DNA from: a virus
Length of the DNA: 45,327 nt
IMG/VR virus record: IMGVR_UViG_3300044641_004965
Coordinates: 1-45,327 of that record
Strand: one strand, 5' to 3'
Part shown: in pieces, positions 6,533-45,327 of the stretch
Layout of the letters: each line of letters opens with the position of its first letter
How positions within the stretch are numbered: position 1 is the stretch's first letter
The notes under the pieces: generated by a model
Databases searched by the model: none
The model's input: only the letters and a program-made list of their open reading frames with translations
Told to the model about the DNA's origin: nothing
Program-made: the position numbers and the translations under genes

Positions 6533-8251
6533 GTGGACCGTGTTACTGAGATTGCTGAAGCCCTTGAGGCTGGAACCCTCACCGACGACGAGATCGGCGC
6601 TGCCCGCACCGAACTGGTGACTCTGTTCGAACAGATTCGCGCCGGCGAGGTCGAAGGCATCGAACCGACTGATGTGGAGCTGCTCGCTCGCATCGTTGAG
6701 ATCGCTGATCTGCTTGGCGTCGTGGCCTACCAGCGGCTCGAGGCTGCTGCCGAGGCAGCGATGACCATCGCTGAGTTGGAAGCTCGCCTTTCTGCTGAGG
6801 TTGCTGAGCCGGCTGACGGTGAAGCAGCTGAGCCAGTAGAGGCCGACGATGAGGCTGAGGCAACTACTGATGTTGTGGCCGAGGTCGTCGCTGAGGCTGA
6901 GGCAATCATTGAGGAGGCTGCGGCTCCTGTGGCTGCTGCTGCTCCGCCTCTTGCCAGCATCGCAAAGGCTGCGCCGGTCAAGGCGAACCCGCGTCCTCAG
7001 GCTCCTGCGAAGTCGTACCGGATCGTCGGTCAGCATGGCGAAATCTCCGGCATGGGCGACCTTGCTCGTGAAATGGCAAACCTGTGGAACAGTGGCGCAG
7101 CTGGCGTCTACGGCAACAAGGTTCGCGGTGCCCGCATCGTGGCGGATTACCCCGAGGACCGAGTCCTGCCTGAGATGGATGGCTCCACTGTTGAGGGTCG
7201 GATCGAGGCAGTCGTTGCTGCCGCTCAGGATCCGGCGTCGTGGACCGAAAGCATTGTCGCCTCTGGCGGCTGGTGCGCTCCCACCGATGTGGATTACGGC
7301 TTGGCTCAGATCTCTGAGGCTGGTCGGCCCGTCCGCGATTCGCTGCCAGCGTTCCAGGCAACTCGTGGCGGTCTTCGTGTGGCCCAGCCTCGGACCCTCG
7401 CTGATATCGATATCACCTACAACGCGAGCGACGCTGATGCGGCCATCACGGTGTGGGACAACGACACCGACGAGGACCCTGATGGTGCGGTCAAGGGTGT
7501 GCAGACCATTGACTGCCCGACTTTCAGCGAGTACCTCACCTCCGCCATTGTGAAGCGTCTCCGCTTCGGCAACATGGGCGCTCGAGCCTTCCCTGAGAAC
7601 GTCGCCAACTTCAACGAGCTCGCCTTCGCAGCGCACGCTCGGGCCGCAGAAACTGTCCTCCTTGACAGCATCAAGGGTGCCAGCACTGCTGTCACAGTCG
7701 GTCAGTCTTTCGGGGCATCTCGTGACCTTATCGAAGCGATCAAGCGTGCTGCTGCTGCGTACCGCAGCCGTCACCGTGCGCCGAACGTGGTGCTTCGTGC
7801 GCTGGTTCCTCGGTGGATCACCACGCTTGGTGACGTCGATCTGGTCCGTTCGCTTGCCAGCGACAGCCGGTTCGTGTCTGATGGTGAGGCTGTGTTCCGG
7901 AGCGGACTGGCTGTGGCCGGTGTGAACGTGACGTTCTACGACGACACGCCGACGACTGGCACCTCGCAGATTTTCGGTGCTCAGGGCGCTGGCGCTCTGA
8001 CGGCCTTCCCTGGCACCGTGCAATGGGGCCTGTACGACGAGGGGCATCACTTGTTCCTTGACGGCGGGACCCTTGATCTCGGGATCGTGCGGGACGCAAC
8101 CCTCAACAGCACCAACGACTACGAAACGTTCGTGGAAACCTTCGAAGGTGTCGCTCACCGAGGCATCGAGTCCCTGTGGATCACCTCCACCGTGTGCCCC
8201 GATGGAACCTCGGCAGCTGCCATCGAAGATGCCGTTGCGTGCGGCTCCTGA
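6533..8251 (+). CDS. Major capsid protein (HK97 fold) with long N-terminal scaffold-like domain
   Basis: This 572-residue protein starts at GTG 6533 behind TGGAGAAG. Residues 1-165 are helical, acidic and Ala/Glu/Pro-rich, like a delta (scaffolding) domain removed by the prohead protease. From about residue 165 the sequence is capsid-like: KVRGARIVADYPEDRVLP, the WTESIVASGGWCAPTDVDYGL segment, RGGLRVAQPRTLADI, and the C-terminal YETFVETFEGVAHRGIESLW strand and helix. It would assemble the icosahedral shell. It follows the protease gene after a regulatory gap and precedes a probable second virion protein. Confidence 0.85.
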   Translation: MDRVTEIAEALEAGTLTDDEIGAARTELVTLFEQIRAGEVEGIEPTDVELLARIVEIADLLGVVAYQRLEAAAEAAMTIAELEARLSAEVAEPADGEAAEPVEADDEAEATTDVVAEVVAEAEAIIEEAAAPVAAAAPPLASIAKAAPVKANPRPQAPAKSYRIVGQHGEISGMGDLAREMANLWNSGAAGVYGNKVRGARIVADYPEDRVLPEMDGSTVEGRIEAVVAAAQDPASWTESIVASGGWCAPTDVDYGLAQISEAGRPVRDSLPAFQATRGGLRVAQPRTLADIDITYNASDADAAITVWDNDTDEDPDGAVKGVQTIDCPTFSEYLTSAIVKRLRFGNMGARAFPENVANFNELAFAAHARAAETVLLDSIKGASTAVTVGQSFGASRDLIEAIKRAAAAYRSRHRAPNVVLRALVPRWITTLGDVDLVRSLASDSRFVSDGEAVFRSGLAVAGVNVTFYDDTPTTGTSQIFGAQGAGALTAFPGTVQWGLYDEGHHLFLDGGTLDLGIVRDATLNSTNDYETFVETFEGVAHRGIESLWITSTVCPDGTSAAAIEDAVACGS

Positions 8252-8281
8252 GTCGGCTGACAACAGAGAAAGGCTGGGCTG

Positions 8282-9157
8282 ATGCCTGACCTGTCTTACA
8301 CGCCAGTTGACCCACCGCTCGTTCAGCCACCGCGTGTCTCACTGCTCTCCTCTGCGGAGGAGGTCGTTGATGGCACGCGGTGGACGGCTGGCCTTACTTT
8401 TGAGCCGTACGGTTGCGGCTACAACGGTGGCAACACGGTTCTTTGCGCTGATGCCTCAACTGACCCTGAGAACGTCAGCAAGGCTTTCGACTCTGAACAT
8501 CGGGTCATTGAGGTTGAGCCGTTCGTCGCTTTCTATGGCGACTCGTGCTCCTCAGCGACTTTTAGGAGCCGGGACTTTGTTGATCGGGCGACGCGCGTGT
8601 TCCTCGCAGCCGAGTCTGCGCTGATCGCGCGCGAGCTTTGGGCCGGCGAAATCGCAGCTGCTGAGGGTTACCCGAATCCGTATTTTGGTGATGGCAACGC
8701 TGACGTGATCGGCAACCTTTGGCCGACTTCTCCTGGTCTGCACCAGTTGCAGCGGGAGCTGGCCGACCGCATCCCGACGAGGGGCATGATTCACGCCACG
8801 CGTGATGTCGTGACTTCGTGGTACGAGGCTGGCGCTATCCGACGCGAGGGAGCCATCCTGCTGGACGCCTACGACAACATCGTGGTCGCTGACGCTGGTT
8901 ACCCTGGTACTGGCCCGAATGGCGAGGCTCGGACAGATACGACCGCTTGGGCTTTCGCAACTGATCTTGTTCAGGTTCGTCGTGACGGGCAGGTTCGTGT
9001 CCTACCCGACCCTGGCGATTACGCAGCAGCGATGGATCGTGACGTCAACCTGATCGAGTGGCGTGCTGAGCGGATCGTGGCTGCGTACTGGTCTGTGTGC
9101 GCTCACGTCGCTATCGAGATTGACCTTTGTGCTGTAGAATGTCCTCTAGGAAGTTGA
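8282..9157 (+). CDS. Unknown probable virion protein after the capsid gene
   Basis: This 291-residue protein starts at ATG 8282 behind AGAAAGG. I do not recognise a family. It is Cys-containing (YGCGYNGGNTVLC near residue 45 and a C-terminal DLCAVECPLGS), has a long central helix (DRATRVFLAAESALIARELW) and ends in strands (ERIVAAYWSVCAHVAIEIDL) reminiscent of capsid or decoration proteins. Its position between the capsid and tail-tube-like genes suggests a head decoration or head-completion role (inference). Confidence 0.65.
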   Translation: MPDLSYTPVDPPLVQPPRVSLLSSAEEVVDGTRWTAGLTFEPYGCGYNGGNTVLCADASTDPENVSKAFDSEHRVIEVEPFVAFYGDSCSSATFRSRDFVDRATRVFLAAESALIARELWAGEIAAAEGYPNPYFGDGNADVIGNLWPTSPGLHQLQRELADRIPTRGMIHATRDVVTSWYEAGAIRREGAILLDAYDNIVVADAGYPGTGPNGEARTDTTAWAFATDLVQVRRDGQVRVLPDPGDYAAAMDRDVNLIEWRAERIVAAYWSVCAHVAIEIDLCAVECPLGS

Positions 9158-9166
9158 GGTAGTCAG

Positions 9167-9856
9167 ATGACTGTTTGTCTTGGTTCATTGCAGGTTTGCC
9201 GCATCCGTGTGGCGAAACTCACCGCTGGTGGCGTCCCTGATTATGGCGCTGGCAACGGCTACGTGAGTGACGCCATCATTCAGGCTGACCTGTCTGTGGA
9301 GCTGTCCTCCGGTGACGACTTCGAACTCAAGAACGGTTGCGGCGATATCGCCCAGCAGTACAAGGACTGCGACAAGCCGAAGCGTGTCAATGTGGATATT
9401 GAGTTCAGCCAGTTGGACTCTGAGCTGGTTGGCCTTCTGACCAACAGCGACACGTTCTACGACGCCGGTGAGGACGTAACTATCGGTGGGGCGCTCGCCT
9501 CTTCGACTGACCCGTGCCCCTACGGTGTGGCGCTCGAGATGTGGACCAAAGCCTGGAACAGCAACCAGCAGGCGAACGCTTCGCTCATCGGCGGTTCTGC
9601 GTCAGACGTGCTGTACTGGCGCTGGTTCTTCCCGTTCGTGCGTTTCCAGATCGGCAACATGACGCTGCAGAACGACATCCTCCGCATCCCAGTCACCGGG
9701 TACGCTCAGGAGAACGACGATATGCCAGCGTCTGGCCCGTACTTTGACTTCCCGGCTGCTGTGCAGTCCGCTGGTGGTATCACTACGAGCATGGGTTGGT
9801 TCCTTGACGACGAGATGCCAGCCGCGCAGTGCGGTTACATCGAAGTCGGCTCCTGA
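9167..9856 (+). CDS. Putative major tail (tube) protein
   Basis: The 229-residue protein opens with CRIRVAKLTAGGVPDYG and has SVELSSGDDFELKNGCGDI near residue 45, matching the strand pattern and the glycine/acidic loop seen in siphovirus tail-tube proteins. The rest is strand-rich with aromatic residues (LYWRWFFPFVRFQIGNM). It would stack in hexameric rings to form the tail tube. Its location upstream of the neck genes, rather than just before the chaperones, is slightly unusual. A GAGG site precedes ATG 9167. A decoration protein is the main alternative. Confidence 0.55.
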   Translation: MTVCLGSLQVCRIRVAKLTAGGVPDYGAGNGYVSDAIIQADLSVELSSGDDFELKNGCGDIAQQYKDCDKPKRVNVDIEFSQLDSELVGLLTNSDTFYDAGEDVTIGGALASSTDPCPYGVALEMWTKAWNSNQQANASLIGGSASDVLYWRWFFPFVRFQIGNMTLQNDILRIPVTGYAQENDDMPASGPYFDFPAAVQSAGGITTSMGWFLDDEMPAAQCGYIEVGS

Positions 9857-14387: not shown

Positions 14388-16869
14388 GGAAACTCTTGAG
14401 TTGGATATCAGTCCGGCGCTGGCTTCCATTGAGGAGCTCGGGAGCCGGCTGACCAACGTCGCGCAGGCGTTTGGCGAAGTGCTGTCCGACTCCATGCAGG
14501 CAGCTCTCGCTGGTCTACCAATCATTCAGCCAGAGGTTGATGCGACAGGCGTCACCGAGGAAGTTTCAGAAGCTCTTGCTGAGGCGACGGCAGAGGATCG
14601 CCCTGTTGAGGTCACAGTTGACGCTGACGCCTCAGCCATTACAGAGGCCGGTGACGAGGCTGCAGCTGCGATTGACACCGAGGTTGAACTTTCTGTTTCT
14701 GTTGACTCAACAGCAGTGGATGAGTTCAATCAGCAGGTTGAGGAAACAGGTAAGAGTGCTGACACCGCGACTGAGTCTGTTGAGGGCATGGGCGGTGCTG
14801 CTGGCTTCTTAGGAGCGAAGTTAGGCACTGCGAAAGCAGGATTGGCTGGCCTAACAACTGGTGCGGCTGCTGTCGCTGCTGGGGCAGCTGGCGCTGCGGT
14901 TGGCGTCAAGTTTCTGTATGACGCTGCGTTCGAATCTGTCGCTGTCACCCAAACCTGGGAGAACACGCTTGGGGCATTGGGTTCCCGCATTGAGGACCTA
15001 GAGTCCGGTAGCACCGGGTTCAGTCAGAGTCTGCGCCAGTTGGCTCAGGACACCGGCTCGTCCGATGAGGCGGTGCTGATCGCGACGTTGCGATACACGC
15101 AGTTCCAGCAGGCTGCCGGTCTAGCAGACGATGAGATCGTAAAGAACACGCAAAACATCGCTGCGTTGGCTGCTCAGGTTCGCATCAACAATCCGCAACT
15201 CGGCACAATGGACGAGATCATCAGGACACTTTCTCGGAGTCTTGGCCGTGGCGGTCCACGCCTTCAGCAATACGGCATTGACATCAACACCGCAGCGATT
15301 GAAGTCCGCGCCCTGGAAATGACAGGCAAGGCTGCTGCTGATGAGTTGACTGGCGCTGAGAAGTCTGCTGCAGGCCTGTCGCTGGCGTTAGAGCAGGTCG
15401 CCCCGAATGCTCAAAGCGTCGCAGACGGCATGAGCAATGTGCAAGTCGCATCGGACCGCGCAAGCGAGAAGTTCGGTGACGCTCTGGAGGTCTTGGGCGA
15501 ACCAGTTGTCGAACCGATCACCGAGGCCTTAGTGGATTTGGCCGAAGCGTTCGAGGGTTTGGCGAATGTCGTTGCACAGTCTGTGCCGTATATCAGCGCA
15601 TTCTTGAGCGAGGCTCGCAATCTTGGTGATTGGGTCAACGACAACCTTGATCCGATCTCAAAGTTCCTTGCACTAGAAGCACCTGATGGCCAGTCATGGC
15701 TCGAGTTCGGTGAGGACGTTCGTGGAGGTGGCGAAGACGTTCAGGAAACAGTTTCTGATACGACTGTCTCCTTCAATGACTTTGGTGATGCCGTAAATGT
15801 TGCTTTCAGCAGTGCTGGTCAGATCATTGGCGAGGCAGTGTCCACTGTTGCTGGTTTCGGTCGCGAAGCTGCGATCGCCGCGCAAAGCATGACTGTGTTG
15901 GCTGAGGCTGGTGCGTCGAATCTTCCCACAGTCCTGAGCCTGTTCCAAGACATTACAGATGAAACTACGCCTGATCAGTTGAAAGCCAATCTGGACGAGC
16001 AAATCGCGTTGACTCAGCAGTGGGTCATCACGATGTATCAGACACAGTCGGACGGATTCGGTAACGTCACCGCCTTGCTGGCGCAGCTAGGACCGGAGCG
16101 GTCAGCGATGCTGGTCGGCATGTACGGGACACAGCTGCAGGATCTTGAGAATCATCTAGCCCAGGTTTACGCAGCCGAGCAGCAGGCTCGAGTGGCTCTA
16201 AACGAGTTGGCAGTCAGAGAGTTCCTCCGGTTGCGGGGAATCACTGGTGCCGAGGCCGACGCCATTGTTGGTGTGTTCAGAGCCAACCTGCAACTTGGCG
16301 TTCCAGCAGCTCAGGAGCTGGATGCTGTCATCCGCAACGCTGAGACTAAGAAACTCGCCGGCATGACAGCCTTTGGCGACTTCGGCACGGCAGTCACCAA
16401 GAGCGTTCAGGACGTTGTAAACGAGACTGAGGGTCGGGCGATCGCTGACAATCTTGACAAAGGCTTGGGCGCTGGGCTTTCTAAGGAGCAGGCGCAGGCT
16501 GTATGGCAGGCAGCAATCTACGCTCAAAGGGTCAAAGACAAGATCAACGAGATTCTTGGAGTGAAGTCGCCGTCCACAGAGATGATGAGAACAGGTTACG
16601 AGTTGGCGCGCGGTTTGGCCATAGGCATCGAAGGCAACACCGGTCTTGTCGACACAGCAATCGGGAGGCTGGGTAGTAGTGCGCTAGGTCTGAGTCTTAC
16701 CGGCGCAGCTGGGGCTACTACCGCAGCAGGCAACATCGCTATCACTGTGCCCATCACAGTCGCTGCTGGCATGACCGCTGAGGACGGGGCGCGAATCGGT
16801 GAAGCAGCCGGCGAGGCCGTCGCTGACCAGTTGCGTCGCCGGATGAGACTGGAGGCGATGGTCGCATGA
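14377..16869 (+). CDS. Tape measure protein
   Basis: This 830-residue protein starts at GTG 14377 behind CAGGAG and overlaps the chaperone frame. It is largely helical and coiled-coil with a hydrophobic stretch at about 150-180 (AGLAGLTTGAAAVAAGAAGA) and LLG/ASEKFGDALEVLGEP-type motifs common in tape measures. The C-terminal EILGVKSPSTEMMRTGYELA is the typical closing motif. It sets tail length; at about 1.5 angstrom per residue the tail would be roughly 120 nm (general rule, inference). The stop overlaps the next ATG. Confidence 0.9.
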   Translation: MSVRETLELDISPALASIEELGSRLTNVAQAFGEVLSDSMQAALAGLPIIQPEVDATGVTEEVSEALAEATAEDRPVEVTVDADASAITEAGDEAAAAIDTEVELSVSVDSTAVDEFNQQVEETGKSADTATESVEGMGGAAGFLGAKLGTAKAGLAGLTTGAAAVAAGAAGAAVGVKFLYDAAFESVAVTQTWENTLGALGSRIEDLESGSTGFSQSLRQLAQDTGSSDEAVLIATLRYTQFQQAAGLADDEIVKNTQNIAALAAQVRINNPQLGTMDEIIRTLSRSLGRGGPRLQQYGIDINTAAIEVRALEMTGKAAADELTGAEKSAAGLSLALEQVAPNAQSVADGMSNVQVASDRASEKFGDALEVLGEPVVEPITEALVDLAEAFEGLANVVAQSVPYISAFLSEARNLGDWVNDNLDPISKFLALEAPDGQSWLEFGEDVRGGGEDVQETVSDTTVSFNDFGDAVNVAFSSAGQIIGEAVSTVAGFGREAAIAAQSMTVLAEAGASNLPTVLSLFQDITDETTPDQLKANLDEQIALTQQWVITMYQTQSDGFGNVTALLAQLGPERSAMLVGMYGTQLQDLENHLAQVYAAEQQARVALNELAVREFLRLRGITGAEADAIVGVFRANLQLGVPAAQELDAVIRNAETKKLAGMTAFGDFGTAVTKSVQDVVNETEGRAIADNLDKGLGAGLSKEQAQAVWQAAIYAQRVKDKINEILGVKSPSTEMMRTGYELARGLAIGIEGNTGLVDTAIGRLGSSALGLSLTGAAGATTAAGNIAITVPITVAAGMTAEDGARIGEAAGEAVADQLRRRMRLEAMVA

Positions 16870-19658
16870 GTTGGAATCCGAATCGCGCGGCCGGCTGCGT
16901 CTATGGGATGGAGTGGCTGCCGACCCGTCAAGTAGATCGGCCCGTGGCTGGAACAGGTGGAGCCTCGTACTCATGGACCGTGGACTCAACTGTTGCTGAG
17001 GACATCGACCGGCTGTGGCTTTACTCCGGCAAGGAGGTGCCGAACGCCTATGACACGGTAGACATTTATGACGCTGCCGACCTGGAGCCGGTCGTCGTTG
17101 AGACAGATACCTATCTGATGAGCGGTGATGGTGACTCGAGCCGGTTCATCCGCCCGACTGGTGCGATCTATGGCACGTTGCCTCCTGGCTCGCTCGGCAA
17201 CGGGACGTATAGCGTCAATCAGACCCGTATGACAGCAGCTGGCCGCGACTGGTACGAGTTGATCGATGACTCTCCATTTACGGCAGGCATCTACCAGGGC
17301 TGGTGGACTAGCACAGTCGTGGCGTTCTTTGACCCTGTGCCGGTGCTGAACGATGAGTTCATTGGGTTGGTGCCGTGGCCTAAGGAGTTCTACCCGATTG
17401 GTAGCGCAGACGTTCTGAGTCCCTTCAGCCAATGGTCGTTTGTCGCTGATGGTCTAGAGACTGGCCTGAGTGGGCGCAGAATCTTGGGGCTGACAGTTTC
17501 GTGTGTGGCGCAACGAATCATTGACCCGAGAGCTCGTGGCTCCGAGTTCGATCAGCCGGTTCGGATCCGGCCGGCCATCTACGTCAACGGTGCGACAGTC
17601 TGGGGTCAGGCTCAGTTGATGCCATCCCAGCCGCAAACGATCTCCTACACCTGGTACAACAACCCTGTGACTGGCCTGCCGTGGACTGAAACAGATCTTG
17701 AGGATTTCGACTCGACAAACGAGATTCTCTGGCTGATGTCACGACCGGATGACCCTGAAGTGATCGATGCTGTCGGTGGCGCTATCTACCGTGTTGAGGC
17801 GGTAGTGACGCACTGCGAGGAGACTCGTTCGGCTGTAGCACGCCGTGTTGACTCGCAGCAGCTGTTCGGCTGGAACCAATGGTCGGTTGAGGCCATCAGC
17901 GGTGGGCCATGGGGCAAGACCAGCGGTGACCTGTTCCTGTTCAATGCCCGACTAGATGAGCAGCAGGCAGTCGACTGGCGTCCTACGTTGTCCTCAGAGG
18001 GCCTGTCGGTGCGCGCCTTAGGGTTTGGCACAGGAAACGCCAACAACGTCACAGAGGTCCAACCAGCGTTCATTGAGGGCATCCCTCGCTCGGAAGGCTC
18101 AGGCACTGGCTACGCTCCAGCCGTTCTGCTTCAGCGTGATGACAACGATCTGTCAGTTGACGGACAGCCCTATGCAGCGTTGCAGGACTTCTACGGCTTC
18201 GGATTGGTGCGAGAGCCTGGACAACCGATTCTGCTACAAGTCCTTGACATTGACACCGAACCGGACCGAGTGCGTTTCTACGCTCGAGCCGAAGGGGACG
18301 GCCTGCCAGAGAACAATCTGTGCGTGTATGTCATTGACGTACTCGGCAACACCATCGCAACCTCCACAGTTGTGACCCCGATGATGCTTCAGGCAGCCGG
18401 CGCGTGGCAGCTGTTCGACCTGCCTTTGACGACTACTGGCACATGGTCAACACCAGACCTATACGTGGCGTTTCTGTTTGCGTCTGGTGATGGCACCGGC
18501 TGGCAGGTTCTATCATTCACTGACGGGACCAATGAGCCTGGGGCCAGCAGTGGAGGCTTGTTCCCAGCGTTCACCATCGGGTTCGCAGCAACTGGCGTGA
18601 CGACTGAACTGATCGCATACGGTGGCGATCCAGCCGACTTCCGCAACGACGGAACAACCTCAATCGCAGTCGGTGTTGCGCCAGAAACCCCGACCGGATT
18701 GACCGCGACCTACTACGGCTTCAACGATTCGGACCCCTTGAACCTCAACCTGCCACTCATCGCCTTGCAGTGGGATGGTGTCACAGAGGAGGCCGAATGC
18801 TCAGAGGTCGCGTACTACGAGATTCAGAGACGGTCATATGTGGCCGACGCAGGTTTCTACGTGGACTCTGGCTGGCAGACCATCTTCCACGCCGAGGTTG
18901 ATGGCTCAGAGGAGACATACACAGCGTATGACGTCGAAGCGATTCGTGGCTCAACGGCCGGCTCAGGCAATGAGTATCGGGTTCGCATCGTGTCCACCAC
19001 AGGGTTCGCTTCGGACTGGTCCCAGACAGACGAGGTCGCCCCACCAGTTGATGATTACTGCGGGTACTTGTTTGCCTCCAACGTGTTTCCGCTGCGCAAC
19101 ATCTGGCTGATGGATGTTGGCGAGCGTAGCTATCAGATGCTCGAGCGTGTCACCTACTACGAGTTCGAGGACCGTGACGGGGCGCTTCCGGTTCGCGGTC
19201 TCAGTGACCGGCTTGATGAGTTTGAGGTTCAACTGCTGGTTGGCGCTGATGGGGCACGTAACAATCTGCCTGACATCGCAGATTTCGGGACGCGTGGCCG
19301 GCTGCGCTTTGGGAACCTATCAACATTTGCCGGCAACAAACGTCTGCCTGCTGCGACGCAGGATCAACTTGGACTACGAGACCCTCTCCGACTCCCGTAT
19401 TTGGCAGTTCTTGACAATCGAGGCAACCGTTGGTTTGCGTCAGTTGAGACTCCGACCGGCGTCGAACAGGAACCTGGAGGCAGGCACTCGTATCGTGCGC
19501 AGGTGCGGGAGATTACCCGCCAGCCAGAGGTCGTGACGCTAGTAGCCTCCCCTGATGACGCGACGGTACTCGTTTCACAGTTTGTCTACGATCTGCTGAC
19601 GGTCGACCCTGAGCCACCTGTGCCCCCGTTGCCTCCTGGGCCTTATCCCGGTAGTTGA
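16866..19658 (+). CDS. Large minor tail protein with fibronectin-like region
   Basis: This 930-residue, strand-rich protein immediately follows the tape measure with a four-base overlap, the usual place of distal-tail proteins. Residues about 600-730 (PETPTGLTATYYGF, ALQWDGVTEE, EYRVRIVSTTGFASDWS) look like a fibronectin type III domain. The C-terminal part (RSYQMLERVTYYEFEDRDGA, NRGNRWFASVE) resembles strands of tail-tip proteins, and it ends in a Pro-rich tail. It probably lies at the tail tip. Confidence 0.75.
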   Translation: MSWNPNRAAGCVYGMEWLPTRQVDRPVAGTGGASYSWTVDSTVAEDIDRLWLYSGKEVPNAYDTVDIYDAADLEPVVVETDTYLMSGDGDSSRFIRPTGAIYGTLPPGSLGNGTYSVNQTRMTAAGRDWYELIDDSPFTAGIYQGWWTSTVVAFFDPVPVLNDEFIGLVPWPKEFYPIGSADVLSPFSQWSFVADGLETGLSGRRILGLTVSCVAQRIIDPRARGSEFDQPVRIRPAIYVNGATVWGQAQLMPSQPQTISYTWYNNPVTGLPWTETDLEDFDSTNEILWLMSRPDDPEVIDAVGGAIYRVEAVVTHCEETRSAVARRVDSQQLFGWNQWSVEAISGGPWGKTSGDLFLFNARLDEQQAVDWRPTLSSEGLSVRALGFGTGNANNVTEVQPAFIEGIPRSEGSGTGYAPAVLLQRDDNDLSVDGQPYAALQDFYGFGLVREPGQPILLQVLDIDTEPDRVRFYARAEGDGLPENNLCVYVIDVLGNTIATSTVVTPMMLQAAGAWQLFDLPLTTTGTWSTPDLYVAFLFASGDGTGWQVLSFTDGTNEPGASSGGLFPAFTIGFAATGVTTELIAYGGDPADFRNDGTTSIAVGVAPETPTGLTATYYGFNDSDPLNLNLPLIALQWDGVTEEAECSEVAYYEIQRRSYVADAGFYVDSGWQTIFHAEVDGSEETYTAYDVEAIRGSTAGSGNEYRVRIVSTTGFASDWSQTDEVAPPVDDYCGYLFASNVFPLRNIWLMDVGERSYQMLERVTYYEFEDRDGALPVRGLSDRLDEFEVQLLVGADGARNNLPDIADFGTRGRLRFGNLSTFAGNKRLPAATQDQLGLRDPLRLPYLAVLDNRGNRWFASVETPTGVEQEPGGRHSYRAQVREITRQPEVVTLVASPDDATVLVSQFVYDLLTVDPEPPVPPLPPGPYPGS

Positions 19659-26113: not shown

Positions 26114-26934
26114 TGTCAAATTACCCGATCAGAGTGCTTTCTCTCGGCGCTGGAGTGCAATCGACCACGCTGCTACGGATGTGTATTGCCGGTGAACTCG
26201 AACCGATCACTCATGCCGTGTTCTCTGATACCGGCTGGGAGCCACGAGCAGTTTACGACCATCTCGCCAAGATCAGGAAAGAGACAGAGGCGGCGGGCAT
26301 TGAGTTTCATCTCGTTTCGCAAGGCAACATTCGTGACGATGCCCTAAACCCGAATCACCGTTTCGCGTCAATGCCGCTGCACATTCGCAACAAGGATGGC
26401 AAACCGGCTATGGCCCGCAGGCAATGCACAAGTGAGTATAAGTTGAAACCATTGCAGCGGAAGCAACGGGAGATCGCTGGGCTTGCGAAGGGAGAACGAT
26501 GCAAGGAGCATCGGATTACTTCTGTGATCGGCATTTCTTGGGATGAAAGTCAACGGATGAAAGACCCATTCTTCTCTTGGATTCGCAATGAGTACCCTTT
26601 AGTTGATCGCAGGTTGACGCGACAAGATTGTCTAGCGTGGAATGACCGCAACGGTTTTGAACGTCCGCCTAGGTCGTCGTGCATCGGGTGTCCGTTCCAT
26701 AGCGACAAGGAGTGGAGGGCGATCAAAGACGACCCGGAGGACTGGGAAGATGCTATCGCTTTTGACAAGGCGATTCGCAACAGCCATCCGAATAAGAATG
26801 GCGATGCATTGCTTGGCACTGCCTACCTTCACAAGTCTTTGACTCCGTTAGATGAGGTCGATTTCCGAACCATTGAAGAACGGGGACAGGAAACCCTCTT
26901 TGATATGGAATGCGAAGGCATGTGCGGATTATGA
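26113..26934 (+). CDS. PP-loop ATPase, PAPS reductase-like protein
   Basis: This 273-residue protein carries the PP-loop SLGAGVQSTTLLRM (about residues 10-23), a conserved SDTGWEP, the phage-type RRQCTSEYKLKP motif, and a Cys-pair segment CIGCPFHSDKEW. It belongs to the adenine-nucleotide alpha-hydrolase fold (PAPS reductase/DndC superfamily). Phage members have no settled reaction; nucleotide activation or base modification is possible. Its ATG is coupled to the upstream stop, and the stop overlaps the methyltransferase start by four bases, suggesting joint production. Confidence 0.8.
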   Translation: MSNYPIRVLSLGAGVQSTTLLRMCIAGELEPITHAVFSDTGWEPRAVYDHLAKIRKETEAAGIEFHLVSQGNIRDDALNPNHRFASMPLHIRNKDGKPAMARRQCTSEYKLKPLQRKQREIAGLAKGERCKEHRITSVIGISWDESQRMKDPFFSWIRNEYPLVDRRLTRQDCLAWNDRNGFERPPRSSCIGCPFHSDKEWRAIKDDPEDWEDAIAFDKAIRNSHPNKNGDALLGTAYLHKSLTPLDEVDFRTIEERGQETLFDMECEGMCGL

Positions 26935-34463: not shown

Positions 34464-35117
34464 ATGAAGTTTGCGAAAGGATTAGAAGGCCTGCTCGAGC
34501 CGATCGACGGGATCGTCGAACTGAACGACAATCCGAGGCGAGGCGACGTTGACGCAGTCAAACGGTCGTATGACCGGTTCGGGCAACGCAAACCCATCGT
34601 TGTCCGTCACGACGAGGACGGAGTCGCAGTCTGCATCGCTGGCAATCACCAGTTGCGAGCGGCTCGAGAGCTTGGTTGGGAATCTATCGCTGTCAGTTGG
34701 GGGGATGACCTAACCGATGACGAGGCCAAAGCCTATGCGCTGGCCGATAACCGCATCGCTGAGCTTGGCGACTATGAGATCGACGTTCTCGCAAACGCTG
34801 TTCTAGAGCTTCACGCTAAGGACGCCACGCTTGCTGAGGCAGCCGGCTACTCAGAGGAAGCAGTCAAAGCGTTCGACTTTGAGGCCAGCATCGAGGATCT
34901 GCTTGGTGACCTGTCGCCAGTCTATGAAACTCCCGCTGAGGGTATGGAGCGTTACCTTGCGCAGCAGGTGATTGGCATCACGTTCCCGATTCCGGCAGAA
35001 CAGCATGACGAGCTGGTAACGCAACTGTTTGCTCTGCGTCGGGCATTTGACCATGAGACAACCACAGAAACTTTTATGAAACTCGTCGGTGACGCACATG
35101 CGGCACTTGAAGGTTGA
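34464..35117 (+). CDS. ParB/Srx-domain protein
   Basis: Residues 15-105 of 217 show the ParB-type N-terminal domain: NDNPRRGDVDAVKRSYDRFG, QRKPIVVRHDEDG, CIAGNHQLRAARELGWESI and KAYALADNRIAELG. Such domains have nucleotide-dependent DNA-binding or nuclease functions and in phages often occur with modification methylases. The C-terminal half is not recognisable. It overlaps the dioxygenase gene by 20 bases. No ParA is present, so a partition role is unlikely. Confidence 0.8.
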   Translation: MKFAKGLEGLLEPIDGIVELNDNPRRGDVDAVKRSYDRFGQRKPIVVRHDEDGVAVCIAGNHQLRAARELGWESIAVSWGDDLTDDEAKAYALADNRIAELGDYEIDVLANAVLELHAKDATLAEAAGYSEEAVKAFDFEASIEDLLGDLSPVYETPAEGMERYLAQQVIGITFPIPAEQHDELVTQLFALRRAFDHETTTETFMKLVGDAHAALEG

Positions 35118-35946
35118 ACGCCAGCAGCACGTCATCCCGCCAAGCACCGAGATGCGGACGTTCGCTGACGAGCCAGCGGCGGAGCCTATCCGTGGACCAG
35201 TTATTGCCCGAGACGACAACGGGTCGCTAGTTTTCGCACAGTTCCCGATCACCAATGGCAAAGCGAACCGAGTCCTCGAATGGTTGCCGCGCGCTTTCGA
35301 ACAAGTCGGCTTCCCCATCATGAAACGGATGGCTGGCTTCGCTCCACAGTCGCAAACGTTCGGGTCAGCGCCACCAGAACCGATGCGGCGACGCTACGCC
35401 TGCACAACTTGCGGTTTCGACCGCATCTACCCGCGAGTATCGAAGGCCCTTCAGGTGCTACTAGAAGGCGTTGTGCCTGATGTGCGGCAACAACTACCCG
35501 AGGAAGTCAAAGAGCACGAGGAAAAGGTCTACGGCAACATCCACGACGACTGGCTGCTCGCTGGCCAAGCCTGGTCATCCGGCGTGATCAACCGCTCAAC
35601 GATGCTGCCGTACCATACAGACAGGACGAACGTGTCCGGCGGTCTTTCCCTGCAGGTCAACCTCAGGAAGAACGCAGAAGGTGGCTGCCTCCACTTTCCT
35701 GAGTACGGAGTCTGGATATTGCCGGAGGACGGGACCGTGACCGTTTTCCGTGGCGGGACAACCTTCCACGCGGTCACCCCGATACACCTACAGAAACCTG
35801 ACGCCTACCGTTACTCCATTGTGTATTACGCAAAGTCCACCCTTCACAAGTGTGGAGCCAGGGCTGACGAGGCAAAAAGAGCTGCAAAGTATCAGACGTG
35901 GATTCTGGAGCAGCGGCTCGAGGCCAAAGGAATCAAACCGGAATGA
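35098..35946 (+). CDS. TET/JBP-like Fe(II)/2-oxoglutarate dioxygenase
   Basis: This 282-residue protein (ATG 35098; GTG 35089 possible) shows the double-stranded beta-helix oxygenase motifs: PYHTDRTNVSGG (Fe ligands H173 and D175), GGCLHFPEYGVW, TTFHAVTPI (distal ligand H224) and AYRYSIVYY (R238, the 2-oxoglutarate-binding Arg about 14 residues after the His). This arrangement and the GGxLxFPEYG strand match TET/JBP base hydroxylases. It would oxidise 5-methylcytosine (or thymine) in DNA. A CTTC pair at residues 102-105 may bind zinc. The next gene overlaps it and is a TET-associated glycosyltransferase-like protein, which supports the assignment. A prolyl hydroxylase-like enzyme is the main alternative. 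Confidence 0.78.
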   Translation: MRHLKVERQQHVIPPSTEMRTFADEPAAEPIRGPVIARDDNGSLVFAQFPITNGKANRVLEWLPRAFEQVGFPIMKRMAGFAPQSQTFGSAPPEPMRRRYACTTCGFDRIYPRVSKALQVLLEGVVPDVRQQLPEEVKEHEEKVYGNIHDDWLLAGQAWSSGVINRSTMLPYHTDRTNVSGGLSLQVNLRKNAEGGCLHFPEYGVWILPEDGTVTVFRGGTTFHAVTPIHLQKPDAYRYSIVYYAKSTLHKCGARADEAKRAAKYQTWILEQRLEAKGIKPE

Positions 35947-36662
35947 CGCTCCCCTACCATCTCGCAGTCATCTCGGCCCGCCGACCGCATTCTGTTCCAG
36001 CCATGAACCAGCTGCTACCCATCGGAGCCTGCTGGTACGTCCCCGAAGATGAGATGCAGGCATACAAGGACGCTGGCGCAAACCGTGTACGGGCAGCCAA
36101 CGCACTTGTAGAGGCGCGAAACCTGGCTCTAGACGACGCATTCTCCACCGACCAGTTATGCGTCCAAACCTCTGACGACCTCACCAAGATTCGGCGTCTC
36201 GGAGTCAAAGAGCATCCCGAGCTCACCATGCACGAAACCATCGAAGAGATGATGTCAGCAATGGCGCAAACCGGGGCACACCTCGTCGGCTGCGCCCCAA
36301 CCGCCAACCCCTTCTACGGCAAACACAACATCAACACCACAGGCTTCGTAGTAGGCGACCTCATCATGATCGCCCCGACACCTCTACGGTTCGACGCCAA
36401 CCTCACACTCAAAGAGGACTACGACTACACCTGCCAACACCTACACGCCTACGGCACCATCGCCCGCTGCGACTACCTGCTCGCCACCTACAAACACCGC
36501 ACAAACGAAGGCGGAGCAGTCACCTACCGAAACGAACAGCAGGAACGGCTCGCCATCGCCTACCTCAACGCCAAATGGCCCAACACGTTCAAACCAAACC
36601 CGAAGCGACCCAACGAAATCCTCATGCGCTGGAAACCGCCAGCAACCAAACCCAAACCGTGA
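35943..36662 (+). CDS. TET-associated glycosyltransferase-like protein
   Basis: This 239-residue protein starts at ATG 35943, overlapping the dioxygenase stop by four bases. It reads SARRPHSVPAMNQLLPIG, CWYVPEDEMQAYKDAGANRV, EARNLALDDAF, CVQTSDDLTK (DD at 78-79, the probable metal/nucleotide-sugar site), then NTTGFVVGDLIMI and EDYDYTCQHLHAYGTI. This is the pattern of the GT-A-type TET/JBP-associated glycosyltransferases. It would add sugar to hydroxymethylated bases. Its codons are unusually C- and A-rich compared with neighbours, which suggests recent acquisition. Sugar and target are unknown. Confidence 0.72.
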   Translation: MTLPYHLAVISARRPHSVPAMNQLLPIGACWYVPEDEMQAYKDAGANRVRAANALVEARNLALDDAFSTDQLCVQTSDDLTKIRRLGVKEHPELTMHETIEEMMSAMAQTGAHLVGCAPTANPFYGKHNINTTGFVVGDLIMIAPTPLRFDANLTLKEDYDYTCQHLHAYGTIARCDYLLATYKHRTNEGGAVTYRNEQQERLAIAYLNAKWPNTFKPNPKRPNEILMRWKPPATKPKP

Positions 36663-39698: not shown

Positions 39699-39929
39699 AT
39701 GGTCGTCGTCAGGTCAGCAACCGTCACGCTCCCTGATGGGAGGCTCGAGCGGCAGCGCAAGGTAACTGTCGCTGATGATGTGATCACAGTGATGGACCGG
39801 AGGACCGGTCGAACCATCTGGCAGGCCACGATCACGCAGGGTTCTCCAGCAGGTCGGCGCTGGTCTGTCCTCACAGACGCTGGAACGATCCAGGTTCGCT
39901 CTGGCTGTGGTTGCGGTGGCAACCGGTAG
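39699..39929 (+). CDS. Small strand-rich protein with C-terminal CGCG motif
   Basis: This 76-residue protein reads as a small beta domain (SATVTLPDGRLERQRKVTVA, DDVITVMDRRTGRTIWQATI) ending SGCGCGGNR. Its start looks leaderless. It overlaps the first glycosyltransferase gene by 23 bases and is the first gene of that operon. Function unknown. Confidence 0.6.
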   Translation: MVVVRSATVTLPDGRLERQRKVTVADDVITVMDRRTGRTIWQATITQGSPAGRRWSVLTDAGTIQVRSGCGCGGNR

Positions 39930-40854
39930 CCGGCGGGTCGCCATCGTCGGGAATCATCGCTGGCGCTGGTCTGCTGAGCAAGACTGGGCAGATGGCTTCA
40001 GACTGAACGGCTGGGACGTCACCGAAGTCGACGAGCGGGAGGCCACAGGCAACGAGATCGTACGCATCGCGTCACGCAGCGATCTGCTGCTTTGGATCAG
40101 TTCCTCAGATCGGCACCCTCAAGACGTCATGCGTAGATGCCGCACCAAGACAGTCACAGTCGCTTGGCACGCTGACCTTTTCTTCGGTCTGAACCGTGGC
40201 AACTGGAGGAGTAGCCCGATGTGGGCAGCCGAGCACGTATTGACCGCTGATGGGAATCCGGACAATGACTGGGCGTCGCTTGGTGTGAATCGGCATGAGT
40301 GGCTGCTTCCAGGTGTCCGTGACCGATGGACGAGCAGCCCTGGCAGATTGAGAGAGGCGTTCCGTTGCGACGTGGCCTTTGTCGGGTCGGCTGGTGGCGG
40401 CTATCACAGGCAGTGGCCCTACCGGTCCCAGCTCCTAGAGCGCCTATCGGAGATGGCTGACCGCAACGGCTGGACGTTCCTGAACCCTGGAGGCTCGAGC
40501 CGACGAGTGGAGAGAAACCAGCGCATGACCGACTTCTACCGGTCGGCGAGGGTCACGGTCGGGGACTCGCTATGTCTCCAGCAGCAGGGGTCACGATACT
40601 GGTCGGACCGTGTGTACGAGGCGACTGGTCGCGGTGGCGTCCTCATCATGCCCCGCATCGAGGAGCTCGCTACACAGTTCCCGATGATGCCGATGTACAA
40701 CTGGTCAGACTGGTTCGGCTTGGAAGGGACCATCAGCCGTTTACTCGCTGATGCCAGGGAGCGTGATCTTGTGCGTGCTGAGTGTCAGAATGTGACCCGT
40801 TCAGGACATACGTATAGTCATCGGGTGCGCCAGCTGCTGGAGGCAGTCAAGTGA
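39907..40854 (+). CDS. Glycosyltransferase-like protein (GT-B type)
   Basis: The 315-residue protein has RVAIVGNHRWRWSAEQDWAD at the N-terminus, HADLFFGLNRGNW in the middle, and a C-terminal Rossmann half with CDVAFVGSAGGGYHRQWPYR, YRSARVTVGDSLC, and YWSDRVYEATGRGGVLIMPR. The last resembles the nucleotide-sugar-binding end of CgeB/group-1-like glycosyltransferases. It starts at GTG 39907. Substrate unknown; it could be hydroxymethylated DNA or a virion protein. The stop overlaps the next GTG by four bases. Confidence 0.72.
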   Translation: MVAVATGSRRVAIVGNHRWRWSAEQDWADGFRLNGWDVTEVDEREATGNEIVRIASRSDLLLWISSSDRHPQDVMRRCRTKTVTVAWHADLFFGLNRGNWRSSPMWAAEHVLTADGNPDNDWASLGVNRHEWLLPGVRDRWTSSPGRLREAFRCDVAFVGSAGGGYHRQWPYRSQLLERLSEMADRNGWTFLNPGGSSRRVERNQRMTDFYRSARVTVGDSLCLQQQGSRYWSDRVYEATGRGGVLIMPRIEELATQFPMMPMYNWSDWFGLEGTISRLLADARERDLVRAECQNVTRSGHTYSHRVRQLLEAVK

Positions 40855-41549
40855 CGTTGCTTTCGTCGAATAGCGAACTGAGGCAGCAGCGGATCGCTGT
40901 CTGGAGCCTGCCTGCCCTGTCGGCCGAACTGCCTGACGGACGCCGAGTCAAGACCTGCCCGAACGCTGGGGCTTGCGCCAGCCTGTGCTACGCGAGGTCA
41001 GGCACCTACAACTTTTCGAACGTGAAGGCAGCGCACGTCCGCAACCTCCAGTACGTACTTGACCATCCTGATCTGTGGCGGCGAGAGATGGTCGCTGAGC
41101 TATCGCGACCGCAGCACCGCAACGGTTGGGTGAGGATCCATGACTCTGGTGACTTCTTCGCTGACTGGTACATGGAGGCTTGGTGCTGGATCGCTGAGGC
41201 GCACCCTGACATCACCTTCTATGCGTACACGAAAGAGGTCACCATGACCCGCCAGCTGCGCAACCGTAGCGTCATACCAGGCAACCTACTGATCGTGTTT
41301 AGTCTTGGCGGCAAGGAGGATCATCTCATCAACCTGGAAACTGAGCGGCACGCTGATGTCTTTACGACTATTGATGCGATGATCGAGGCCGGCTATCACG
41401 ACCAGTCTGCCGATGACCGGCTGGCGGCTGTCGGGCCACAGCGGGTCGGCATCCCAGCGAACAACATTCGGCACCTCCGCAAGCGGCAGGGCGGCCAGTC
41501 GTTCGGACAGATCCAGCAAGATCTTGATGTGAAGAGGCTGAACCGATGA
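40851..41549 (+). CDS. gp88-family protein
   Basis: The 232-residue protein matches the mycobacteriophage gp88 family layout: LSSNSELRQQRIAVWSLPAL, RVKTCPNAGACASLCYARSG with the Cys cluster C-x5-C-x3-C, NLQYVLDHPDLWRREMVAEL, VRIHDSGDFFADWYMEAWCW and ITFYAYTKEV. The family function is unknown. The RIHxSGDF motif and Cys cluster suggest a metal- or cofactor-binding enzyme. Four-base overlaps on both sides place it in the glycosyltransferase operon. Confidence 0.78.
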   Translation: MTLLSSNSELRQQRIAVWSLPALSAELPDGRRVKTCPNAGACASLCYARSGTYNFSNVKAAHVRNLQYVLDHPDLWRREMVAELSRPQHRNGWVRIHDSGDFFADWYMEAWCWIAEAHPDITFYAYTKEVTMTRQLRNRSVIPGNLLIVFSLGGKEDHLINLETERHADVFTTIDAMIEAGYHDQSADDRLAAVGPQRVGIPANNIRHLRKRQGGQSFGQIQQDLDVKRLNR

Positions 41550-42562
41550 AAGTGGGGATGGTCGTCAGGGACGACAATGGCGGACTTGGCAACCTGACGT
41601 ATGACGTCTGGCGTTATGTCCGTCCTGCTGTCACCGTCGTGGTTCAGGTCCGTCCCTGTCGAGGCCAACCGCATCCAGCACAGTTTGAGGAGGCATGGAC
41701 TAAGACGTTCACGATGCCGAACCCGATGAGCCGGCGTGACTGGCGGCGGGTCGCTGCTGAGGCTGACGTCTGGTGGACAGCAGAAACCTGGTATTGCGCT
41801 GAGGCGGAGCAGGTCATTCGTGAGGCCGGTGCCCAGTCTGTGCTGTACGCCATGCCAGAACTGTTCTCTGGATCTGAAGCGGACGCCATCTGGAACCCTA
41901 CTGACTACCTGATGGACAAGATGCCAGAGCGAACAGAAGTAGTTCAGATGCCAATCAGGTTGACTGACAGGTGGGAACCACGGACGAAAGTGCGTCGGAT
42001 CCTGCACATCTCGGGTGGGGCGCAGTACGACAGAAACGGTACGACTTTGCTACTGGATGCACTACGCAAGGTTCGAGAACCGTGTGAGGTGCTCTTTCAT
42101 CAGCCGGACACGCTGCACTGGCTTTCCAACAAGGATCTGCGCGGGTTGCCGAAGGAGGTGCAGGTTAGGGTCACTCGCGACTACGTGGACGGAATGGGCA
42201 GTCTGTACAAGTGGGCAGACCTGCTCGTGTTGCCACGACGCTACGCAGGGCTGTGCCTTCCAGCGTTCGAAGCGTTCTCGCACGGATTGCCAGTGATGAT
42301 GCCGGATACTGACCCGCAGAGCAGCTGGCCGATCATCCCTGTAGACGCAGTCAACGAGAGGCCCGCTCGCATGAAAGGTGGCCGAGTCCCAATGGTGAGC
42401 ACCGACCCTGTAAACCTGGCAAGACGGCTCGAGTCGGTTCTAACCGCTGATGTCCATTGGGTTGTTCGTGAGTCTGAGCGGGTTCGGAGCTGGGCTGAGG
42501 CCCACACTTGGCAGCAACTTGGCCCGATCTGGCGTCAACAGTTCGATAGGTTGGGATCATGA
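41546..42562 (+). CDS. Glycosyltransferase-like protein (GT-4/GT-B type)
   Basis: The 338-residue protein has RRILHISGGAQYDRNGTTLL at the domain junction and the nucleotide-sugar-binding end LYKWADLLVLPRRYAGLCLP, then AFEAFSHGLPVMMPDTDPQS, the E-x7-E-like and Gly-Leu-Pro pattern of group-1 glycosyltransferases. The N-terminal half (KVGMVVRDDNGGLGNLTYDV) would hold the acceptor. It may glycosylate modified DNA or a tail protein. It overlaps both neighbours. Confidence 0.78.
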   Translation: MKVGMVVRDDNGGLGNLTYDVWRYVRPAVTVVVQVRPCRGQPHPAQFEEAWTKTFTMPNPMSRRDWRRVAAEADVWWTAETWYCAEAEQVIREAGAQSVLYAMPELFSGSEADAIWNPTDYLMDKMPERTEVVQMPIRLTDRWEPRTKVRRILHISGGAQYDRNGTTLLLDALRKVREPCEVLFHQPDTLHWLSNKDLRGLPKEVQVRVTRDYVDGMGSLYKWADLLVLPRRYAGLCLPAFEAFSHGLPVMMPDTDPQSSWPIIPVDAVNERPARMKGGRVPMVSTDPVNLARRLESVLTADVHWVVRESERVRSWAEAHTWQQLGPIWRQQFDRLGS

Positions 42563-43008
42563 AGGTGAACATCGGGTGCGGCGGCAAGCCCAGAGATGGC
42601 TTTGTGAACGTAGACCAGCATCCGCTCTCAGGTGTTGACATCGTTCACGACCTAGATATCTATCCGTGGCCCTTCGATGACCAGTCGGTTCAGCATGTGC
42701 TAGCAGAGCATGTGTACGAACACGTCAAGGACCCGATCGGGTTCGTTCTAGAGTGCTGGCGAGTCCTGGACTCTGGAGGTTTGCTGACAGTGACCTGCCC
42801 CCATTGGACCAGTCAGAACGCCTTCACTGACCCGACACACGTACGTTTTGTTACAGATCAGACGTTTGATTACTGGTGCGCTGGCGAGCACCTAAACGTG
42901 GCGCAGGGTAAACCCTTTCTGGGGGACGTATTCCGATTCCGGAAACGTAGGATCATTCGCAACGGCGGTGATATCACGTTCAGGCTCCTCAAGATGCCAT
43001 GCGAGTGA
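42559..43008 (+). CDS. Small SAM-dependent methyltransferase-like protein
   Basis: The 149-residue protein has VNIGCGGKPRDGFVNVDQHP (SAM-binding motif I), DLDIYPWPFDDQSVQHVLAE, HVYEHVKDPIGFVLECWRVL and DSGGLLTVTCPHWTSQ, the class I fold typical of methyltransferases in sugar-modifying gene clusters. It is short but complete in the main motifs. It might methylate a sugar added by neighbouring enzymes (inference). It overlaps both neighbours. Confidence 0.75.
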   Translation: MKVNIGCGGKPRDGFVNVDQHPLSGVDIVHDLDIYPWPFDDQSVQHVLAEHVYEHVKDPIGFVLECWRVLDSGGLLTVTCPHWTSQNAFTDPTHVRFVTDQTFDYWCAGEHLNVAQGKPFLGDVFRFRKRRIIRNGGDITFRLLKMPCE

Positions 43009-44000
43009 ACGCCTACTGCTCCCATCGGCACTACGCCGACCATCTACTACCAGTCTTGGCCGGCCTTCCAGAACTGGTGCGAGGCAGCCTCTATTGCGCT
43101 ACTGATGAGTTGGCGAAACAGCTGCGACTGCGTGGTGACCGAGCATCGATTCTTGGTCCGCGTGAGTTTAGAGTGAGGCCGATGCCGCCCGATGAGGCGG
43201 TGATGGTCGCTGGCTTCATAGATCTGAGAATGATGCGCGGTCGCCCGATCTGCCTGATGGAGCATGGTGCGGGGCAACGCTACGAAGGCGTTCGTGACGG
43301 TTCTTACGCTGGCGGTCGTGGCCGTGGTCGGGTGAGTCTTTTTCTCTGCCCCAATGATCAGGTGGCGCAAGCAAACCGTGACCGCTATCCGCAGGCCAAC
43401 GCTGTTACGGTCGGCTCTCCCAGGCTCGATGTTCTTTGGAAGGCACGAGCGGAGTTCAGCCGGCATCGGGACGGGCAGAGGGTCGCGGTCTCGTTTCATT
43501 GGCCCTGCCCGCTGGTGCCCGAGGCAGGTTCATCGTGGGATGCCTTTCGTCCAGACGTCATCAGACTGGCTGCGAACAGCACCTACCAGCTGCTCGGGCA
43601 TGGTCACCCGCGCCTTTGGTCACGAATCCAGAAATGGTGGGAGAGGCTGGGGGTAGAGCAGGTTCAGGAGTGGATTTCTGTCGTTCGTCGTGCCGATATC
43701 TACGTCTGCGATAACAGCAGCACCATGTTTGAGGCCTGTGCGCTCGATCTACCGGTCGTAGTGTTGAACTCCCCTGACTATCGGAGAGGCGTGGAGCATG
43801 GCCTACGGTTCTGGGATCATGCCGGAATGGGTCCTGAGGTATCCCCTGGCGGCAATCTTGACCGAGCCCTACAGGTTGCCAAGTCATTTACTGAGCAGCG
43901 CCAGAAGGCTGCTTCAGCAGCGTATGCTGTCCTTCCTGACGGGTCTGGCGAGGCAACGGCTCGAGCGGTTGAGGCGGTGATGAAATGGGCAGCGAACTGA
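42999..44000 (+). CDS. Glycosyltransferase / CDP-glycerol transferase-like protein
   Basis: The 333-residue protein has ICLMEHGAGQRYEGVRDGSY (the H-G motif), FLCPNDQVAQANRDRYPQAN, and YVCDNSSTMFEACALDLPVV with VLNSPDYRR, the N-S-S/E/P-V pattern of the GT-B CDP-glycerol glycerophosphotransferase clan. It could move a sugar or glycerol-phosphate group. It is the last enzyme of this operon and overlaps the next gene. Confidence 0.7.
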   Translation: MRVNAYCSHRHYADHLLPVLAGLPELVRGSLYCATDELAKQLRLRGDRASILGPREFRVRPMPPDEAVMVAGFIDLRMMRGRPICLMEHGAGQRYEGVRDGSYAGGRGRGRVSLFLCPNDQVAQANRDRYPQANAVTVGSPRLDVLWKARAEFSRHRDGQRVAVSFHWPCPLVPEAGSSWDAFRPDVIRLAANSTYQLLGHGHPRLWSRIQKWWERLGVEQVQEWISVVRRADIYVCDNSSTMFEACALDLPVVVLNSPDYRRGVEHGLRFWDHAGMGPEVSPGGNLDRALQVAKSFTEQRQKAASAAYAVLPDGSGEATARAVEAVMKWAAN

Positions 44001-44323
44001 GGGATGTTGCTCTCGACTCTGTTGCTGCTTGGCGGCTGACGAGGCTGGTGACTACGGATCGGATCAGCGAGCCGTTGCGTGACCGGCTGATAGGGCATCC
44101 GAGGCTGGGCTTCATTGGTGAGGGTATCGAGTGTGACTGGTGCGTTGGTGTGTGGATGGGCGCTGCTGTGGCAGCAGCTGGCAGATACACACCGCGCCTT
44201 TGGAAGTTCGGCCGCTACGCATTGGTGGTTGCTGGCGCTGTCGGTCTGATTAGTGAGGCCATGAGAGGAAATGATGAGCATGACAATCATTTCGATCATG
44301 CGTTCTCATTTCAGACAGAATGA
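43985..44323 (+). CDS. DUF1360-like small membrane protein
   Basis: The 112-residue protein shows DVALDSVAAWRLTRLVTTDR, EPLRDRLIGHP and ECDWCVGVWMGAAVAAAGR, then ALVVAGAVGLISEA. Charged LTRL-TTDRIS-PLR and CxxC-VGVW are typical of DUF1360 phage proteins, which are membrane-associated and of unknown role. It overlaps the preceding gene by 16 bases. Its 3' end contains one copy of a 21-base direct repeat. Confidence 0.7.
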   Translation: MGSELRDVALDSVAAWRLTRLVTTDRISEPLRDRLIGHPRLGFIGEGIECDWCVGVWMGAAVAAAGRYTPRLWKFGRYALVVAGAVGLISEAMRGNDEHDNHFDHAFSFQTE

Positions 44324-44407: not shown

Positions 44408-44632
44408 ATGGACGCAGAATCTGTGAAAAGAGCGAAGCGGGCAGCGTACGCACGGGCTTGGCGGGCCAAACATGGCGCGAGGACTGGCCGGCGTGGCCCA
44501 GCTGCTAGCGCAGCGTGTGGTACCAGGTCTGGATATCACCGTCACCGCCGAGAAGGCACAACAGTTTGCAGCTTGTGCCGTGAGGCTGAGAGCCTTTATC
44601 AGCAACAGAGGCGTCGCCAATCTCGGCTGTAG
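44408..44632 (+). CDS. Small basic zinc-finger-like protein
   Basis: The 74-residue protein is strongly basic (SVKRAKRAAYARAWRAKHGA). Its second half, ACGTRSGYHRHRREGTTVCS with CSLCREAESLYQQQRRR, has spaced C, H and CxxC residues consistent with a zinc knuckle seen in small actinophage proteins. Likely nucleic-acid binding. The start appears leaderless. Confidence 0.6.
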   Translation: MDAESVKRAKRAAYARAWRAKHGARTGRRGPAASAACGTRSGYHRHRREGTTVCSLCREAESLYQQQRRRQSRL

Positions 44633-44682: not shown

Positions 44683-45021
44683 GTGCCTCAGCCTGCCCCA
44701 AGAGACCTAAGCGCCTATCAGGGCGACGACTTCACACACGAAGTTCGTTTCGTAACCTCGGCCGGATCGCCCGTGAACGTGACCGGCAGGACGTTTGCTT
44801 CGCAGGTGCGGCGACGCTGGTCTGATACCACTATTGACGCCACTTTCGCTGTGGACACAACCAACGCAGCAACTGGCATCGTGGTGTTCACCCTGTCAGC
44901 TGCGACCATGACAGCCTTCGAGCCAGGCACCTATCGTTACGATCTTCAGCAGGTCGCTGGCGGGCGCAGATTGACGCTACTCAAAGGCAAGTTTGTCGTT
45001 GACGGTGAGATCACACGCTAA
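44683..45021 (+). CDS. BppU-like N-terminal tail/baseplate protein
   Basis: The 112-residue protein has [56 protein letters not shown] and [20 protein letters not shown], then DGEITR, the pattern of BppU-type N-terminal domains that join receptor-binding fibres to the tail. GTG 44683 appears leaderless. Its stop overlaps the start of the collagen-like gene, so both belong to the fibre module. Confidence 0.72.
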
Positions 45022-45327
45022 TGGCAAGCGAATACACCGAGATTGTCGTTGAGGGGGGTGTCGTCACTGAGGTGACGGTTGTTGACGAGATCGTTTCGGT
45101 GCTTGACGTCACGGACAACGAGGTGACCATTCTCGGTGTCGGGGAGATCGGGCCAGCAGGTCCGACCGGCCCGCAGGGTTCGACGGGACCGCAGGGCGCG
45201 GCGGGTCCTACTGGTCCGACGGGTGTGCAAGGTCCGACCGGACCGCAGGGTTCTACCGGTCCTCAGGGTCAGATCGGCCCGCATGGTCCGACCGGTCCGA
45301 CGGGTCCGGTTGGTCCTCAGGGTGCTA
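45021..45327 (+). CDS. Collagen-like tail fibre protein (runs off the window)
   Basis: The gene starts at ATG 45021 (TAATG overlap). About 42 residues of strand-rich sequence ([20 protein letters not shown]) are followed by G-x-y repeats ([16 protein letters not shown] and similar) to the window edge, 102 complete codons. Phage collagen-like segments form trimeric fibre shafts. If the sequence is circular the frame continues for 16 codons and stops at base 47, giving a 117-residue protein. Otherwise it is truncated. Confidence 0.8.

Follow-up and report, generated by a model that had tools for sequence, protein, structure and literature searches.

A glycosyltransferase cassette of an uncultured phage, predicted to act on virion proteins that end in serine

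The window analysed here, the complete 45,327-base IMG/VR virus record IMGVR_UViG_3300044641_004965, carries towards its right end an overlapping run of genes for glycosyltransferases (GTs) and a methyltransferase (MT). Five open reading frames (ORFs) lie on the + strand at 39907-44000 and overlap by 4, 4, 4 and 10 bases, as the original prediction had it; ATGA and GTGA overlaps are of the type usual for translational coupling. The genes are GT1 (39907..40854; Glyco_trans_1_2, 1e-12, phrog_28745), gp88 (40851..41549; PF17338, GP88 at 2e-51), inserted between GT1 and GT3, the GT4-type GT3 (41546..42562; Glyco_trans_1_4, 3e-7), MT (42559..43008), a short S-adenosylmethionine (SAM)-dependent enzyme (Methyltransf_11, 1e-8), and GT5 (42999..44000). 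The proteins from 39907, 40851, 41546 and 42559 passed a Pfam cut-off. The overlapping run exceeds these five genes: upstream, a conserved 76-aa gene (39699..39929, +) overlaps GT1 by 23 bases, and downstream a DUF1360/phrog_781 gene (43985..44323, +) overlaps GT5 by 16 bases, following GT5 in the relatives too.

Three of the five proteins had been called GT-like. This stood without reserve for GT1 and GT3, both above a Pfam cut-off, whereas GT5 stayed under every cut-off (for PF04464, 16.8 bits against a gathering score of 22.1) and is TagF-like by profile comparison and fold. Its structural model (predicted local distance difference test score, pLDDT, 92) matched TagF over 306 residues (Z 20.9, root-mean-square deviation 3.7; predicted fold), and the predicted GT-B fold agrees with TagF; UDP-N-acetylglucosamine 2-epimerases tied with it (Z 20.7). 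Conserved His and D-x-SS motifs were present, which resemble those of TagF. GT5 thus shares its predicted fold with the TagF/TarL teichoic acid polymerases (PF04464), but it scores below the cut-off of that family and is encoded among phage head genes.

Single-protein queries with GT1 and GT5 recovered nothing, and profiles from GT1 and GT5 alignments recovered 72 viral loci. In the closest relatives, terminase, GT1, GT3, MT and GT5 stood in identical order, kept at protein identities of 51-55% (GT1, GT3) and 64% (MT, in G012 and G009). This conserved order is not due to chance. In the closest relatives, the 76-aa gene, with homologs in G009, G012 and G021, is flanked by terminase and GT1; its product has a Cys-rich SGCGCGG motif close to the C-terminal end. 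Compared with the window, G009 and G012 have the tail and head block inverted relative to the terminase and cassette, with a common gene content.

The neighbours of GT5 relatives were major head proteins, portals, head proteases, adaptors, other GTs and methyltransferases; a few were GtrB-like. An HK97-type capsid gene was recognisable in 16 records; in 8 of them GT5 started at most 1.5 kb downstream of that gene on the same strand, where 0.5-1 would be expected. In virus Rctr41k, GT5 lay two genes beyond the capsid-protease gene. In the late region of Streptomyces phages, GT1 was followed by a hypothetical gene and then an FkbM methyltransferase, and other variants of the cassette take in GT47/RXYLT1-like and FkbM proteins. 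One cassette (L038) encoded between GT1 and GT3 a protein of 169 aa (4155-4664) that weakly resembled TET/JBP and is possibly another 2-oxoglutarate oxygenase acting on a glycan or a protein.

The cassette was associated with a particular ending of virion proteins, Gly or Ala followed by a terminal Ser. In the window, four + strand genes encode predicted targets: the major head protein (phrog_777, 6533..8251, ending in AVACGS), a phrog_779 protein (8282..9157, ECPLGS), the major tail tube protein (phrog_792, 9167..9856, YIEVGS) and a 930-aa protein encoded after the tape measure gene (16866..19658, GPYPGS; VPSS in relatives). Longest-ORF calling picks the wrong strand at the head gene, because a 588-aa minus-strand ORF (6497-8263) lies opposite it. 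All four proteins kept the terminal Ser in G009 and G012, with endings AS, VS, TGS or SS, while the residues preceding it varied between these genomes and the window. When every window gene with a homolog in these two genomes was compared, portal, terminase, tape measure and lysin had no kept terminal Ser. Besides the four proteins, one weak match, w31435, ended in Ser in G012.

Cassette phages in general often had Gly/Ala-Ser at the end of their head, tube and phrog_779 proteins. Scanning for members of the window's capsid family yielded 80 loci, and 50 whole records were searched for GT5 and GT1; a fragment almost identical to the window was excluded. All five capsids from cassette-carrying records ended in Gly/Ala-Ser, against 0/44 from records without it (Fisher 5e-7), and any terminal Ser occurred in only 4/44 of the latter. 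The capsid of L264 ended in CAAS although no GT was seen in its locus; the whole record then yielded GT1 at 6e-80. Counted as distinct C-termini, the ending was found on 6/6 head proteins with and 1/37 without the cassette (the latter an 8-kb fragment), on 4/7 and 1/56 tube proteins, and on 4/6 and 0/43 phrog_779 proteins, respectively. A second, HK97-type capsid family had it in 14/19 carriers and 0/3 non-carriers, the frequency among all ORFs together being 2.8%. Pooled, and ignoring kinship, 27 of 34 capsids with the cassette had the ending, against none of 47 related capsids without it; this figure uses a hand tally of 13/15 for the first capsid family. The giant proteins encoded before GT1 in Streptomyces phages (PHTowN gp30, Yara gp27) were not counted as targets, because they do not end in Ser; the tail protein of PHTowN, a cultured phage with GT1, does end in TAGS.

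Taken together, these patterns make it probable that the cassette of GT1, GT3, GT5 and MT serves virion glycosylation, the predicted tag being a C-terminal serine; DNA would be modified separately in the same genome. Virion proteins had been one of two targets originally proposed, and the association of the capsid and tail tube endings with the cassette favours them. The product is most likely a methylated sugar chain on the terminal Ser of capsid and tail proteins that the phage itself encodes, and not on its DNA. We infer that the glycan sits on the C-terminal Ser, and likewise which sugars it contains, in what order the enzymes act and what MT and GT5 do. One transferase would place the first sugar on the hydroxyl of the C-terminal Ser of proteins ending in a small residue and Ser, the remaining transferases would lengthen the chain, and MT would O-methylate it; the TagF-like GT5 could contribute a further sugar or a polyol-phosphate. 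In the window virus, the targets would be the major head protein, the phrog_779 protein, the tail tube and the 930-aa tail protein. Recognition would require a free C-terminus, and one glycan per modified subunit would therefore be expected.

A comparable system is known from mycobacteriophages. According to PMC12619734, PMC11600133, PMC12363180 and PMC11256854, Che8 and cluster O phages carry glycans on the C-termini of capsid and tail-tube proteins, attached by phage transferases. The system comprises Che8 gp108-110 and Corndog gp35-38 (PMC12619734, PMC11600133 and PMC12363180, reporting Freeman et al. 2023), and Freeman et al. may already have described a motif of this sort in mycobacteriophages. 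We used Firecracker (cluster O) in place of Corndog. The head and tail proteins end in KTGS and SDGS in Che8, LVGS and KGDS in Firecracker, and AEGS and LPGS in the GT5-bearing virus Rctr41k. As in Che8 and Corndog, the window has phage GTs in an operon, and its capsid and tail tube end in a small residue and Ser (mostly Gly-Ser in Che8 and Firecracker). The methyltransferase has a counterpart in cluster O, where an O-methyltransferase and further transferases are encoded between portal and protease, and where capsid modification was proposed (PMC4351075). Homologs of Che8 gp109 or Firecracker gp35 adjoined GT5 in 8 loci. The cassette of the window differs from the mycobacteriophage sets: it is unrelated in sequence to the enzymes compared, includes a TagF-like enzyme, has two further candidate targets and belongs to an uncultured phage.

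Several results weigh against virion glycosylation by this cassette. In sequence, GT1, GT3, GT5 and MT were not homologous to Che8 108-110 or Firecracker 33-36 (E > 0.01), and would therefore be a convergent or a distantly related variant; we did not take homology to Che8/Corndog-type transferases as defining, because the GT of Myrna belongs to another structural cluster (PMC12363180). The cassette of the window is not adjacent to its capsid gene, the tag is missing in 7/34 carriers, and Gly/Ala-Ser endings were not significant when counted within the window alone. The p-values overstate independence, since the carriers are partly related, and the virus is uncultured. In addition, four members of the capsid family (L266, L268, L271 and L310) encoded a Che8 gp110-like or Firecracker gp36-like GT and had no tag. 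Three of these four capsids end in or next to Cys, and the phages possibly use a different acceptor site.

Downstream of the DUF1360 gene and a 74-aa WhiB-like ORF (44408-44632; PHROG match at 2e-8), the expected BppU/LtfC-like (44683..45021, +) and collagen-like fibre genes (45021..45326, +) were recovered, the latter interrupted by the right end of the window. In G012 both contig ends lie inside the collagen gene, and the genome therefore appears complete except for the collagen repeats. The original prediction had named this fibre as a possible target; its shaft is GPT-rich, and the BppU complex is a further candidate. Both genes are present in G009 and G012, and threonine-rich GPT repeats are plausible acceptors, as with Bacillus BclA. 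Nevertheless, the fibre gene is far from the cassette in G009 and G012, and collagen occurred in only 7 of the ~42 GT records searched, the lineage of the window included. Two relatives, G056 and G058, had collagen and no cassette in the loci searched, and GT5 generally neighbours the capsid gene. As a general target, the collagen fibre is unsupported and was rejected; glycosylation of the adjoining fibre or the BppU complex appears unlikely, and neither is favoured here.

It is still harder to see in the cassette a means of altering glycopolymers of the host envelope, for superinfection exclusion or receptor masking. The likeness of GT5 to TagF/TarL and the few GtrB-like neighbours would fit such a role, which leaves the location among head genes and the C-terminal tag of the capsid unexplained. 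Two insensitive scans with few patterns, covering 84,980 genomes of bacteria and archaea, found no GT5 relative. We consider this role very improbable.

The other target originally proposed was DNA, with the enzymes extending or capping sugars on 5-hydroxymethylcytosine (5hmC). The premise of 5hmC is reasonable as annotation, because the window encodes a C5-cytosine methylase (at 26910), a TET/JBP dioxygenase (35089..35946, +; Tet_JBP in Pfam) and a TET-associated glycosyltransferase (TAGT; 35898..36662, +). This cytosine hypermodification module lies ~3.2 kb upstream of the cassette in the window genome, but the two did not co-occur elsewhere. TET, TAGT, ParB and gp88 were not found in the close relatives G009 and G012 by hidden Markov model and phmmer searches, while GT1, GT3, MT and GT5 were kept. 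Among 45 other GT records searched whole, with the window as positive control, TET was above the cut-off in none and gave one weak match; TAGT was found in three, all distant relatives. A weak TET match was seen in 1 of the 72 GT loci. Conversely, none of 80 loci from a viral TET scan contained GT1, GT3 or GT5; a ParB-like gene was present in 55 and TAGT in 19. Many of the records behind these co-occurrence counts are fragmentary, and this branch is only weakly covered by the TET model of Pfam. The persistence of the cassette in close relatives without TET/TAGT and its absence from the 80 TET loci place it outside the TET/TAGT pathway. Phage GTs hypermodifying DNA are known (Pyle 2024, cited in PMC12619734), and the C5-methylase, TET and TAGT do share a genome with the cassette; given the missing co-occurrence and the location of the cassette's family in head gene clusters, we rejected DNA as its target, the least probable of the readings considered.

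Two further observations concern the DNA-modification genes. TET/JBP homologues are labelled 'queuine tRNA-ribosyltransferase' in many phage records, which is also the name of PHROG 6059; their Pfam match is Tet_JBP, and the label looks like a propagated misannotation. A PAPS-reductase-like gene (26065-26934) directly precedes the C5-cytosine methylase, and was not found in the three relatives fetched.

The place of gp88 in the overlapping run was as claimed, but we found no functional part for it in the glycosylation set. It clearly belongs to PF17338 (175 bits, gathering score 24.4). The cassettes of the close relatives lack it, and so do 44 of 45 other GT records. In 80 gp88 loci there was no GT1, GT3 or GT5; TET was found in 8, TAGT in 5, and a ParB-like gene and a related terminase in 15 each. 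Several of these loci had the order ParB-TET-TAGT-terminase-gp88, whole or in part, and shared lineage may account for part of this association. As a separate gene found with TET, TAGT and terminase, gp88 makes the operon a mosaic, and we rejected it as a member of the glycosylation set. The eleven best structural matches of its model (pLDDT 92.8) were radical SAM enzymes, with spore photoproduct lyase at the top (Z 7.1, in the range of unclear matches). Like these enzymes it has three invariant cysteines, which are spaced CX5CX3C and not CX3CX2C as in the cluster motif of radical SAM enzymes, set in a partial TIM barrel. An action of gp88 on DNA is possible.

Phage virion glycosylation has so far been documented in a few mycobacteriophages. 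We see about even chances that Gly/Ala-Ser-COOH is a portable virion glycosylation tag used by several unrelated cassettes (Che8/Corndog GTs, GT1/GT3 and the TagF-like GT5) well beyond mycobacteria, with the TagF-like enzyme perhaps adding a polyol-phosphate; the end of the capsid gene would then predict virion glycosylation from sequence. The analysis also distinguishes, in a single genome, a glycosylation system for DNA from another for the virion. Provided that the tag does go with the cassette, particles would be modified in many environmental phages, the acceptor site could be found by reading the sequence, and cultured phages would allow the predicted targets to be checked by mass spectrometry.

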